64,000 nt of DNA from contig NZ_JAIHLP010000002.1 of the NCBI RefSeq assembly GCF_020009625.1, forward strand, positions 310,001 through 374,000, written 5' to 3'. Positions within the stretch are counted from its first letter, which is position 1. Each line of letters opens with the position of its first letter. The stretch comes from Leifsonia poae. GTDB lineage: Bacteria > Actinomycetota > Actinomycetes > Actinomycetales > Microbacteriaceae. The translations under genes and the position numbers were made by a program. The notes beneath the pieces are model-generated. The model was not told where the DNA came from and ran no database searches. It saw nothing but the letters and a program-made list of their open reading frames with translations. Below are positions 3,240 through 58,800 of the stretch, one piece after another.

Positions 3240-3823
3240 GAGGGGCTGCCCAATCGACGGATGAGTGACCAGAAATAGTCGAGAGTTGCTGCCATATCGG
3301 CGGTGCCGTCGAGCATCCACTGCACCTGCATGCCGTCGGCCACGGCGATTCCGAGCCGCGCGATCTGCTGCGGGTCGAGATCCGCGTCGAGCCTGCCGGA
3401 TGCCTGCTCCGACCGGATGTGTTGCTCGAGTTGCGAGAGTATCGAGCGGTAGCGCTCGACGAAATAGTCGTGTCCGGGGTGGTCGTCGTCGGCGGCCTCG
3501 GCTGAGATCGTGGCGTAGAGCTGCACGAGCCCGGGCACCTGGGCATTGTGGTGGACGACACGGACGAGAGCGGCGAAGGCGTCGTCCGCCCCGGGTTCCG
3601 CCGCCGAGAAGTCGACCTCGTCGCGTTTGCGCAGCACTTCGGCGAAGAGGTCTTCCTTCGACGTGAAATGGTGCAGCAGACCGGCCTGGCTGAGCCCCAC
3701 GGATTCGGCGATCTCGCGCAGGGAAGCCCGCCGATACCCCCGTTGGGCGAAGACGGTGAGCGCCGTGGCGAGAATCTCCTCCCGCTTGGCGATCCCTTTG
3801 GCGTACGACCCCTTCTTCGGCAT
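3236..3823 (-). CDS. TetR family transcriptional regulator
   Basis: A 195-residue regulator. The N-terminal helix-turn-helix covers roughly residues 15-60 (REEILATALTVFAQRGYRRA, then LREIAESVGLSQAGLLHHF), and a C-terminal ligand/dimer domain follows. The ATG at 3823 is preferred over one seven codons upstream because a TAGCAT hexamer ends 7 bases before it, which fits a leaderless transcript. It is coupled to the downstream DedA gene and may control it, or itself. The ligand is unknown. Confidence 0.85.
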   Translation of the reverse strand: MPKKGSYAKGIAKREEILATALTVFAQRGYRRASLREIAESVGLSQAGLLHHFTSKEDLFAEVLRKRDEVDFSAAEPGADDAFAALVRVVHHNAQVPGLVQLYATISAEAADDDHPGHDYFVERYRSILSQLEQHIRSEQASGRLDADLDPQQIARLGIAVADGMQVQWMLDGTADMAATLDYFWSLIRRLGSPS

Positions 3824-20361: not shown

Positions 20362-20369
20362 CGCGGAAA

Positions 20370-20408
20370 CGCGAAGAGCCCCCGTCGTGACGACGGGGGC
20401 TCTTCGCG
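20370..20408. terminator. Bidirectional terminator between holA and rpsT
   Basis: An 18-bp perfect stem (arm beginning CGCGAAGAGCCCCCG) with a TGA loop lies between two convergent genes. The A/T-poor flanks mean no strong U-run on either side, but the stem is very stable. Confidence 0.85.
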
Positions 20409-20451
20409 ATTCGGGCGAACCCGCGGTGCTCGGCCGCTGAGCGGCAGAGAC

Positions 20452-46154: not shown

Positions 46155-46166
46155 ACCCGCTGAAGA

Positions 46167-46200
46167 GAAACGCCCCGGACCGCACGGTCCGGGGCGTTTC
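46167..46200. terminator. Bidirectional terminator between leuA and the TRIC gene
   Basis: A perfect 16-bp stem (arms starting GAAACGCC and CGGTCCGG) with a CA loop lies between convergent genes. The AAA and TTT at the base give a short U-run in both directions. Confidence 0.9.
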
Positions 46201-46208
46201 TGCATTGC

Positions 46209-48550: not shown

Positions 48551-49275
48551 TGCCGGATGTTGCCCCTCACGTGAGTGAACCCATCAAGATCGACATCTGG
48601 TCCGATATCGCCTGCCCGTGGTGCTATATCGGCAAACGCAAGTTCGAAGCGGGAAGCGGTGAGTTCGAGCAGAACGGCGAGGAACGCGCCGTCGAGATCG
48701 AATACCACTCCTTCGAGCTCTCTCCGGACACCCCCGTCGACTTCGACGGAAGCGAGATCGACTTCCTTGCCGGACACAAGGGGATGCAGGCCTCCCAGGT
48801 GACCCAGATGCTGGAGCGCGTCACCGGCATCGCGTCCTCTGTCGGACTCGACTACGACTTCGACAGCCTCAAGCACACGAACACCGTCAAAGCCCATGAG
48901 CTGCTGCACTTCGCGAAGACACAGGGCAAGCAGCTCGAACTGTCGGAGAGGCTGTTCAAGGCCTACTTCACCGAGGGCCGTCACATCGGTCGGATCGCCG
49001 ACCTCGCCGACCTCGCGGCGGAGGTCGGGCTCGACCGCGCCGCCGCGGTCACCGCGCTCCAATCCGAACAGTTCCTCTCGGATGTGCGAGCCGACCAGTC
49101 CCTGGCGCAGGAGTATGGCATCCAGGGCGTCCCCTTCTTCGTCATCGACGGGCGCTACGGCGTCTCGGGTGCGCAGGATGCGTCGACTTTCGCCCAGGTG
49201 CTGGAGCAGGTCTGGACCGAGCGCGCCGACGCGGATGGTGTCGCCGGTTCGGAGCAGTCAGGGGTGCACGCATGA
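48550..49275 (+). CDS. DsbA family oxidoreductase (FrnE-like)
   Basis: A 241-residue cytoplasmic thioredoxin-fold protein with active site CPWC in DIACPWCYIGKRKFE, an inserted helical domain and cis-Pro region GIQGVPFFVIDGRYGVSGAQ. FrnE-type proteins are disulfide isomerases or polyketide-related oxidoreductases, so the substrate is unknown. It starts at TGATG behind uppS; GTG 48571 is an alternative. Its stop overlaps a small Cys-containing ORF. Confidence 0.88.
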   Translation: MPDVAPHVSEPIKIDIWSDIACPWCYIGKRKFEAGSGEFEQNGEERAVEIEYHSFELSPDTPVDFDGSEIDFLAGHKGMQASQVTQMLERVTGIASSVGLDYDFDSLKHTNTVKAHELLHFAKTQGKQLELSERLFKAYFTEGRHIGRIADLADLAAEVGLDRAAAVTALQSEQFLSDVRADQSLAQEYGIQGVPFFVIDGRYGVSGAQDASTFAQVLEQVWTERADADGVAGSEQSGVHA

Positions 49276-49394
49276 CCGCCAAGCCCGGGTTGATCCCGCT
49301 CGGCGACGCGAACGCCGTGGTCTGCGATGGTGACGTCTGCGTCGTCCCGGGTGCGGACGCGACCCCCGGCTCCACAGCCACCCCGACCGTCTAG
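49272..49394 (+). CDS. Small protein with two cysteines, downstream of DsbA-like gene
   Basis: A 40-codon ORF, MTAKPGLIPLGDANAVVCDG followed by DVCVVP and a Pro/Thr-rich tail. The ATG overlaps the oxidoreductase stop (ATGA), which argues for real translation. Cys18 and Cys23 are in a VCDGDVC arrangement that could be a redox partner or metal ligand. No known family is recognised. It ends in a CTAG shared with the convergent DUF559 gene. Confidence 0.6.
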   Translation: MTAKPGLIPLGDANAVVCDGDVCVVPGADATPGSTATPTV

Positions 49395-50347
49395 TTGGCA
49401 CGAATCGCCGTGCCGTCGCCGAACGGCACGGCAATTCGTGACGACTCATACGGCGATGCCAAGGTGAGACGGATGCGCCGCGTCGCCTCGGCTGCGTTGT
49501 TGCGCATGTGGGTGCTGTTGAGGCGCAGAACACGCCACCCCAGCCGTTCGATGCGCCAGAGGCGGTCCACATCCTTCGTGTACTGGTCGGCGTCGGTTCG
49601 GTGATGGTCACCGTCGTACTCGACGACGACGCCATGCGTGCGGTAGACGAGGTCACCGAAGGCGACGAAGGAGCCGCTTTCGTCGAGGATCACGGCGTTC
49701 ACCTCTGGCTCGGGCAGACCGGCACGGGCGATCGCGAGTCGCAGGAGAGACTCCATCGGCGAGTCGGTTCTCGGTCGGATGAGGCGGAGCGCCTCATCCA
49801 GCCGTCGTACTCCCGGACGATTCGTCGCTGACGCAATGGCAGCATGCACGTCTTCCTCCGTCGCAAGGGGGTTCTGGCGCCGGAGGAGCGCATCGCCGGC
49901 CTGCACCACGGCATCGACGGTGAGCATCGAGGCGAGTTCGCACCAGACCTCGACCGCGTCCGGCACGGGAAGCGTTGCGACATCGACGATCCGTGCCGGG
50001 TCGATGCGGAGCTGGTGGCCGGCAACGCCCCGCCTTCGCGGTGCGCGGTGCGGCGGAATGACGGAGACATGCATCGTCGGGTCTGCGGCGACAGCCGCCG
50101 GCAGTGGCAGACCGTGAATTCGTGCTGCCGTCGTGTGACTGAAGAAGTGATCGGCGCCCATCACCGTCTGCAGGGCGGCACATCGATCGAGGAATCCGCG
50201 GTCGCCGGCCGGAAGTCGGGTTCCATGGAACGGGCGGTCGAGGTCGGCGCGGCGGAGTCTGGAGTGTGGAATCCCTGCATCCAGCGCCTGCGCGGTTGCG
50301 AAGGGACGCGCTCGGAACTCGGCTGGAAGGGGGCGGGCGTTCGGCAT
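49391..50347 (-). CDS. AbiEi-like/DUF559 endonuclease-domain protein
   Basis: A 318-residue protein. The N-terminal about 100 residues resemble the AbiEi antitoxin type (LRRADLDRPFHGTRLPAG, HTTAARIHGLPLP). The C-terminal part (about 195-280) is a Vsr/DUF559 PD-(D/E)xK nuclease fold: Glu199, Asp232 in FGDLVY, and EYDGDHHR at 243-250, then RLGWRVLRL. The substrate is unknown. The gene is bracketed by two copies of a hairpin repeat; the downstream copy encodes residues of about 303-316, so the C-terminus was probably acquired with the repeat. ATG 50347 has a purine-rich GGCAGGG upstream; GTG 50353 is the alternative. Confidence 0.82.
   Translation of the reverse strand: MPNARPLPAEFRARPFATAQALDAGIPHSRLRRADLDRPFHGTRLPAGDRGFLDRCAALQTVMGADHFFSHTTAARIHGLPLPAAVAADPTMHVSVIPPHRAPRRRGVAGHQLRIDPARIVDVATLPVPDAVEVWCELASMLTVDAVVQAGDALLRRQNPLATEEDVHAAIASATNRPGVRRLDEALRLIRPRTDSPMESLLRLAIARAGLPEPEVNAVILDESGSFVAFGDLVYRTHGVVVEYDGDHHRTDADQYTKDVDRLWRIERLGWRVLRLNSTHMRNNAAEATRRIRLTLASPYESSRIAVPFGDGTAIRAN
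49399..49440. repeat. Hairpin repeat, copy 1 (in the 3' end of the DUF559 gene)
   Basis: CACGAATCGCCGTGCCGT and ACGGCACGGCAATTCGTG form an 18-bp stem with one mismatch and loop CGCCGA. The first 37 bases match copy 2 (50413-50449) in the same orientation with one difference. It may also serve as terminator for the convergent genes. Confidence 0.85.
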
Positions 50348-50386
50348 CCGCACACCCTGCCACGAATCCGTTGACGTCTGTCGACG

Positions 50387-50395
50387 TTATCCACA
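50387..50395 (+). other. DnaA-box-like 9-mer
   Basis: TTATCCACA, a perfect match to the bacterial DnaA box, lies between the DUF559 start and hairpin repeat copy 2. It is isolated: I saw no cluster of boxes and no AT-rich unwinding region. Confidence 0.4.
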
Positions 50396-50405
50396 GCCCC
50401 TGAAG

Positions 50406-50461
50406 GAGTTGTCACGAATTGCCGTGCCGTCGCCGAACGGCACGGCAATGAGTGACAACTC
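50406..50461. repeat. Hairpin repeat, copy 2 (upstream of the DUF559 gene)
   Basis: A 56-base two-step palindrome. The outer arms are GAGTTGTCAC/GTGACAACTC (10 bp), then a 3-base internal mismatch (GAA/TGA), the inner arms are TTGCCGTGCCGT/ACGGCACGGCAA (12 bp) and the loop is CGCCGA. It lies 9 bases beyond the ybaK stop, so it could also terminate that transcript. Confidence 0.88.
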
Positions 50462-50470
50462 GTGTGAGGG

Positions 50471-50989
50471 TTACTCCGGGTCGGTGATGTCGGCGACGGT
50501 CGCGTCGAATGCCGAGATGAGGTCGTCGGCCTCGACGAAGAGGGAGTATCCGTGCTCGCCGGCGCCCATGGCGAGGCTGCGACCGGCGACCGACTGGTCG
50601 GCGACGACTGGCCAGGCGGTCGTGCTGCCGAAAGGTGTGATCGTCCCGCGCTCGTACCCCGTGGCCGAGAGCGCGACGGCGGCATCGGGAAGTTGGAGCT
50701 TGTTCACACTGAGGAGTCCGCGCAGTTTCGGCCAGGAGATCTTTCGGCCGCCGGGCACAAGCGCGAAGAGGAACGTTCCGTCGCTGCGTTTTACCACCAG
50801 TGTCTTGACGATCCCGGAGGGCTCGATCCCGAGCAGAGCGGCGGCCTCCTGCAGGTTGCCGGCCGCGGGGCGTTCGACGATCCGGACGCTCACTCCGCGA
50901 CGCGCGGCGTCGGCTTCGGCCCGGGCACGACCGCCCTCCACAGGCGAGCCGTTGCTCGGAGTCTCCACAGCATCCGTGCTCTCGGTCAT
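50471..50989 (-). CDS. YbaK/EbsC family aminoacyl-tRNA deacylase
   Basis: A 172-residue protein of the YbaK/ProX editing family, which removes misacylated amino acids (for example Cys from tRNA-Pro). The family core VKTLVVKRSDGTFLFALVPG, RKISWPKLR and ITPFG are present; the Lys in KTLVVK is the usual catalytic residue. The first 20 residues are acidic and variable. It is divergent from dusB with 33 bases between the starts. Confidence 0.85.
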   Translation of the reverse strand: MTESTDAVETPSNGSPVEGGRARAEADAARRGVSVRIVERPAAGNLQEAAALLGIEPSGIVKTLVVKRSDGTFLFALVPGGRKISWPKLRGLLSVNKLQLPDAAVALSATGYERGTITPFGSTTAWPVVADQSVAGRSLAMGAGEHGYSLFVEADDLISAFDATVADITDPE

Positions 50990-58764: not shown

Positions 58765-58800
58765 AAACCCCCGAACTCCACACAGAGTTCGGGGGTTTTT
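58765..58800 (+). terminator. Terminator after tRNA-Asn
   Basis: CCCCCGAACTC and GAGTTCGGGGG form an 11-bp stem with loop CACACA, extended by AAA/TTT and followed by TTTTT. This is the clearest intrinsic terminator in the window. Confidence 0.95.

Follow-up and report, generated by a model that had tools for sequence, protein, structure and literature searches.

A Vsr-like nuclease gene bracketed by matching hairpins in Leifsonia and other Actinomycetes: a possible REPIN-RAYT-like partnership

The 64,000-nucleotide stretch of Leifsonia poae analyzed here (the window; contig NZ_JAIHLP010000002.1, positions 310,001 to 374,000 of the forward strand) contains a gene for a predicted Vsr-like nuclease with an AbiEi-antitoxin-like N-terminal part, bracketed by two copies of a DNA hairpin. 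Such bracketing is observed at many loci of related genes, hairpins of the same class are dispersed through the genomes with arms that tend to match those of the resident gene, the repeats and the gene co-occur, and the gene itself is present or absent at an orthologous site. We interpret the gene and its hairpins, with a probability of roughly 0.6, as a partnership resembling that of the RAYTs (repetitive extragenic palindrome, or REP, associated tyrosine transposases) and the REPINs (REP doublets forming hairpins), in which an unrelated nuclease recognizes and processes its own hairpins; the AbiEi-Vsr nuclease as the hairpin partner is the simplest account.

In the Gram-negative bacteria studied, RAYT transposases are the enzymes with which REP-like repeats are associated. 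A link between nuclease and hairpins would give a family of Vsr-like nucleases a role, would show that repeat-enzyme partnerships can arise from unrelated enzymes, and would supply many natural enzyme-target pairs for the study of how DNA specificity evolves.

The nuclease gene and its hairpin pair

The nuclease gene occupies positions 49391..50353 on the minus strand and codes for 320 residues from the listed GTG or 318 from an in-frame ATG at 50347, which we think is the true start. Hairpin copy A (49393..49447) lies at the 3' end of the gene, with the stop codon and the last codons falling inside it, and copy B (50406..50461) lies upstream, 9 nt past the stop of the gene for a YbaK-like aminoacyl-tRNA editing protein (50471..50989, minus strand; Pfam tRNA_edit, 4e-27). 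The copies as aligned (49393-49447 and 50407-50461) are 55 nt long, directly oriented, 91% identical and spaced by 1014 bases, and share a 37-nt core, CACGAAT(C/T)GCCGTGCCGTCGCCGAACGGCACGGCAAT, with a single mismatch. Repeat comparison thereby confirmed the pair that the original prediction had described; the distance from copy B to the gene, which it had put at about 60 bases, is 52 from the GTG and 58 from the ATG. When folded as single-stranded DNA copy A reaches -23.4 kcal/mol (z -6.6) and copy B -27.8 kcal/mol (z -9.4), and in neither case were any of 200 shuffles equally stable. The two are among only five palindromes scoring at least 14 in the window, three block shuffles of which yielded none. 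The interval from copy B to the start of the gene contains the motif TTATCCACA (50387..50395, plus strand; TGTGGATAA in gene sense), which is similar to the DnaA-box consensus. On the other side of the gene is a 40-residue open reading frame (49273..49394, plus strand) following a gene that we take to be DsbA/FrnE-like; this reading frame and the YbaK-like gene form the two edges of a segment that is present or absent among Leifsonia genomes (see below).

Residues about 5-193 of the nuclease are AbiEi-antitoxin-like and residues about 196-304 Vsr-like/DUF559, which upholds the domain assignment first made from the sequence: the DUF559 Pfam score passes its cut-off (25.9 against 20.6 bits), and a PADLOC AbiEi profile matches the N-terminal part at 2.5e-6, with which the fold comparison agrees. 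The PADLOC scan returned AbiEi profiles and two weak others, and NCBIfam returned no family matches. The AlphaFold2 model has a predicted local distance difference test (pLDDT) score of 92.9, with values below 50 at residues 308-312 and 314-320, the end encoded within copy A. On structural re-alignment the homing endonuclease I-Bth0305I is the best-scoring fold. Among the 12 positions invariant in 58 aligned sequences are E201, D234, E245, H251 and D261, candidate counterparts of the Vsr-like (EDxHD) catalytic residues. The modelled protein is an AbiEi-antitoxin-like part joined to a predicted nuclease of the Vsr/homing-endonuclease kind. Distant relatives occur in four plasmid records.

Bracketing recurs across loci and genera

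Relatives of the nuclease were found in 27 of 28 Leifsonia genomes. Taking as a match any score above the 99th percentile of mismatched pairs, the upstream flank of the gene matches its downstream flank in 74 of 104 loci, as against none of 540 control block pairs from the same loci. This set was assembled without L048, L049, L015 and L051 (L numbers denote loci) from the first 33 loci and without 5 short-flank loci from a further 80, and with seven proteins common to both locus sets the 104 loci are partly non-independent. Of the 75 usable named loci 50 match, spread over 19 of 29 genus labels, including Leifsonia, Curtobacterium, Rathayibacter, Agromyces, Microbacterium, Arthrobacter, Phycicoccus, Promicromonospora, Isoptericola and Jiangella.

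Palindromes are concentrated at the ends of the gene. Across 30 scorable genus loci, 36 of the 60 ends bear a palindrome scoring at least 14, with 14 loci having one at both ends and 22 at one end or more. The remaining 103,632 bases hold just two, of which one is the hairpin upstream of a gene that is split (L051) and the other a third instance of the hairpin of its locus (L061). The L061 hairpins lie at 1368-1430, 2374-2430 and 3453-3509 of that locus, the third copy being about 1 kb past the downstream one. In the 80 loci of named genomes palindromes were called upstream in 47, downstream in 35, at both ends in 28 and at either in 54, with 32 palindromes in the 485,529 bases elsewhere; 15 of these 32 are flank-like, at least one trivially so (a GC simple repeat), and one extends into a flank. 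Rfam gave eight sub-threshold matches in seven loci, none at gathering score, of which six are of microRNA type on bare hairpins and two (cspA, ASdes) are located elsewhere. The DnaA-box-like motif TGTGGA(T/G/C)AA is found in gene sense in 51 of 104 upstream flanks, in the other sense in 4, and in the background at 3 per 420,174 bases.

A further short motif, RACACGCCG or its complement, is common to hairpins with unrelated stems at the gene ends of L117, L139, L143 and L147, and also to hairpins L262, L265, L267 and L274 at the Mrp site described below. Among the 82 hairpins called in the 80 named loci, the Leifsonia core type counted, 16 contain the motif against an expectation of about 0.25, and it possibly forms a common inner recognition element.

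Hairpin copies dispersed through genomes

Contrary to what would be seen of a repeat confined to its locus, further full palindromes of this type occur elsewhere in the window genome. The arm pattern with at most three mismatches recovers 18 arm matches there (3 with the reversed control). These resolve into eight complete palindromes, of which two are the pair at the nuclease gene, and two single arms, one of which by eye lies outside any palindrome. At most nuclease genes of the site between the YbaK-like and FrnE-like genes (the YbaK/FrnE site) the core reads AACACGCCG-spacer-CGGCGTGTT. Hairpins with the AACACGCCG core number 189, gene-side copies counted; they are carried by 18 of the 28 Leifsonia genomes, with 2-25 in each, and the reversed core gives none in any genome. 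Sixty-four of the 189, all away from the nuclease gene, were read in detail, in genomes up to and including part of G018. Hairpin length is near-constant across copies. A simple gene caller placed 73 copies, including the two at the window gene, in convergent (50), tandem (16) and divergent (3) intergenic regions, with one inside a doubtful gene and three unclear. The pattern is also seen in four Jiangella genomes, where a wholly different hairpin, of TGATCATGGAG type, has 9, 14, 7 and 37 copies, some at nuclease genes; 12 genomes from other genera have none. Hairpins grouped closely in twos, threes or arrays, like REP clusters, were seen at L231 and L234 (G015), L227 (G009) and G012:C3:124850-125215.

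Hairpin content was also compared between genomes at a few sites. Downstream of the Mrp gene, a site adjoining a solitary hairpin of the window genome, no palindrome is present in 19 of 27 scorable genomes (G015, at a contig edge, being unscorable). The others are the window genome, with a hairpin of its own type, six genomes with other palindrome families, and one with a C/G run. The type seen there in G021 and G019 is by eye like the flank of nuclease locus L147. At the L201 site 63-64 nt are present in G012 and absent from its close relative G001, where the flanks abut exactly. An apparent degraded hairpin in G002, and a G017 hairpin bearing the GGGGTCGC-type arm of its own gene, lie at the same site, making a loss in G001 as likely as a gain in G012. 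The comparison for L193, a G001 copy, is not clean, its G012 counterpart being a cluster of hairpin pieces.

Hairpin arms and the resident gene

Each hairpin combines a shared core with an outer arm, roughly 13 nt long, that varies, and the sequence differs among species even at one orthologous site. For 57 copies in seven genomes, all away from the nuclease gene, the mean best arm mismatch is 2.09 to the resident gene as against 4.19 to 11 other residents, and only 3 of the 5040 assignments of the seven residents to genomes, the true one counted, do as well. In this comparison resident arms were defined by a relaxed core pattern, and G004 and G008, with no scorable resident arm, were left out. 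G015 and G012 show a clear match; in G005 it is barely ahead of that to the G010 gene (2.4 versus 2.6), and in G010 it is weak (3.6 versus 4.0). The pairing of left with right arms exceeds that of shuffles, within genomes too. Hairpin distance correlates with distance of the N-terminal part of the nuclease at 0.51 and of its C-terminal part at 0.24 (Mantel), which is suggestive only.

Presence, absence and inheritance of the gene

The presence/absence polymorphism raised in the original prediction was found at the YbaK/FrnE site. The nuclease gene is there in 19 of 28 Leifsonia genomes (for G002 this is read from a contig edge, and in G019 the gene is split). A YbaK orthologue is present in 27, with G027 having a YbaK fragment and no nuclease relative. 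At 8 of the 27 orthologous sites the gene is absent and YbaK runs directly into a stretch like the 40-residue reading frame; by eye no hairpin of the nuclease type was seen at any of these eight, and those of G007 and G016 bear a short different hairpin. Repeats with the AACACGCCG core are not abundant in genomes lacking the gene at this site, being found in just one of nine, as against 17 of 19 that have it (Fisher 1.2e-4), and the two gene-bearing misses, G000 and G017, have other hairpin cores at their gene. In G019 (L051) the gene at the site is in two pieces, yet 12 repeats are kept. On the species trees, to which YbaK contributes little or nothing for G002 and G023, presence of the gene changes seven times on the best tree and at least four times on well-supported branches.

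The original prediction had further supposed a minimal cassette moving with its gene, and this was not borne out. With site labels assigned by eye from the flanks, the 16 sampled nuclease genes of the YbaK/FrnE site form one clade (Shimodaira-Hasegawa-like approximate likelihood ratio test, SH-aLRT, 99), as do the six beside the CTACCAGCGGGG gene and the two at a LuxR-side site (SH-aLRT 99-100 over the three sites); the five at a fourth site have a support of 65. Hopping of hairpins with the gene between sites as the main mode was therefore rejected, and the single clade at the YbaK/FrnE site implies that inheritance in place, loss, or exchange confined to the site is mostly what befalls the gene. 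The nuclease of G017 (L040) clusters with the genes of G005, G010 and G020, and its host stands beside G001, G002 and G012; a G017 hairpin located elsewhere (L293) bears the GGGGTCGC-type arm of the G017 nuclease gene. From this one site, these observations suggest a same-site gene exchange which the repeats then followed.

Proposed mechanism and alternative explanations

Under the partnership reading the nuclease gene and its two hairpins would be one coupled unit, to which the scattered hairpins also belong. The AbiEi-like part would bind the hairpin arms, much as inverted repeats are bound by AbiEi antitoxins; the Vsr/homing-endonuclease-like part would nick or cut the extruded or single-stranded hairpin. 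Processing might take place around replication, a timing proposed because a DnaA-box-like motif often precedes the gene. Further copies, mostly between convergent genes, could then be seeded and maintained as the processed hairpin is repaired or copied, with protein and arm sequence co-evolving within each genome. We infer these steps of binding, cleavage, copying and timing from the arrangement described above.

Several results weigh against this reading. The flank test is failed by 30 of the 104 loci, and 53 of the 104 upstream flanks are without the DnaA-like motif in gene sense. Foldseek alone puts the homing nuclease fifth (E 0.03), after four Toxoplasma mitoribosome chains, and the sequence-profile E-values are 0.006 for 3hrl and 0.16 for 3r3p. 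G008 has six repeats and no gene at the YbaK/FrnE site. Correction for relatedness leaves four well-supported contrasts in gene presence, with 3.1 in agreement, 0 opposed and 0.9 without a difference (median p 0.25); the gene-repeat trend holds on these independent contrasts, which are too few for significance. In G009 and G018 the arms do not match the resident gene, their copies being closer to another genome's gene, and in G001 the resident arm ties with that of its sister G012. Hairpin distance correlates with YbaK distance (0.54) as it does with nuclease distance (0.53), and coevolution is therefore not separated from common descent. Finally, identity within genomes is 79% for arms and 43% for spacers (40% for spacers between genomes), a contrast that speaks against recent copying of whole hairpins.

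Selection on binding sites would give the same contrast equally well, and the main rival is accordingly a network of immobile sites, kept in step with a changing protein that acts as a DNA-binding regulator or chromosome-structure factor at gene ends. It would account for arms, and not spacers, being common to copies, for the 50 of 73 copies between convergent genes, and for the likeness to AbiEi antitoxins, which autoregulate via inverted repeats (PMC7319586). We nevertheless consider it rather unlikely in view of the likely nuclease residues invariant in 58 sequences, the scattered and unrelated hairpin families at one orthologous site, and the copy whose flanks abut in a close relative. That the hairpins are ordinary bidirectional terminators, alike by chance, would agree with their strong stems and convergent setting; it is improbable given their near-constant length, the empty reversed-pattern control, the species-specific arms, the copy placed upstream of the gene and the lack of a T-run after the window copies, though they may act as terminators in addition. 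A homing-type selfish cassette, in which the nuclease cuts cassette-free chromosomes and repair inserts hairpin, gene and hairpin at the same site, would draw on the I-Bth0305I fold, the repeated changes in cassette presence and the displaced grouping of the G017 nuclease. The eight empty sites, however, lack by eye any such hairpin, which would then not be the target there, and the copies elsewhere are left unexplained; we regard such homing as hardly probable. Least credible is dispersal of the hairpins by another enzyme, the nuclease gene having merely landed between two of them: the enzymatic link between nuclease and hairpin is a proposed one, which leaves room for this view, but bracketing recurs over sites and families with the hairpin type changing along with the gene.

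Relationship to known systems

The closest likeness of the partnership favored here is to REP/REPIN-RAYT systems, as the original prediction had proposed, in the dispersed extragenic palindromes, which tend to match the resident gene, and in the repeats flanking the enzyme gene. REPINs have conserved inverted ends, compensatory changes, and a spacer whose length is kept better than its sequence (PMC3116915), and the Leifsonia hairpins are alike in these respects. In RAYT systems the abundance of repeats is governed by the cognate gene, with different repeat classes at orthologous genes (PMC3686654); hairpin abundance in Leifsonia likewise follows the gene, a relation that is not significant on the four contrasts. 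In distinction to REPIN-RAYT systems, the enzyme is an AbiEi-Vsr/DUF559 protein and not an HUH/Y1 transposase, exact-core copies number 2-37 per genome and not hundreds, and by eye neither window copy has a GTAG-type tag at the palindrome end. The RAYT-type domain Y1_Tnp (PF01797) was detected in none of the 28 Leifsonia genomes at E <= 0.001 and in 5 of 14 control genomes. With the defining enzyme not found, the pair is not a member of the REPIN-RAYT class, though the architecture is close. That Actinomycetes hold a second, independently evolved counterpart, in which an AbiEi-Vsr fusion recognizes, cuts and propagates its own hairpin class, possibly timed by DnaA, is a broader proposition to which we would give even odds; each gene lineage would then have its own hairpin family, which would explain many unexplained intergenic palindromes.

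With I-Bth0305I and other Vsr-like homing endonucleases the protein shares a predicted Vsr-like catalytic fold, and it differs from them in its free-standing gene, paired hairpins, AbiEi-like N-terminal part and dispersed matching repeats. An AbiEi-like domain is shared with the antitoxins of type IV toxin-antitoxin systems (Streptococcus agalactiae 6y8q, Mycobacterium tuberculosis Rv2827c 1zel); here, however, it is fused to a nuclease, with repeats on both sides and elsewhere, and an adjacent AbiEii nucleotidyltransferase toxin gene is absent, the neighbors being YbaK and the convergent 40-residue reading frame. Among the papers listed by literature searches, with subscription journals and preprints outside their reach, none linked this nuclease family to repeats, and the one paper matched for DUF559 together with hairpins is on SPOUT methyltransferases.

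Other features of the window

The hexamer CAGGGT (50354..50359, minus strand), 6 nt before the ATG at 50347, is by eye a possible -10 box of a leaderless promoter, and hexamers resembling it were seen by eye ahead of several relatives' genes. The other three strong palindromes of the window (20366-20412, 46166-46201 and 58765-58798) have the shape of ordinary terminators and by eye are unlike the nuclease hairpins.
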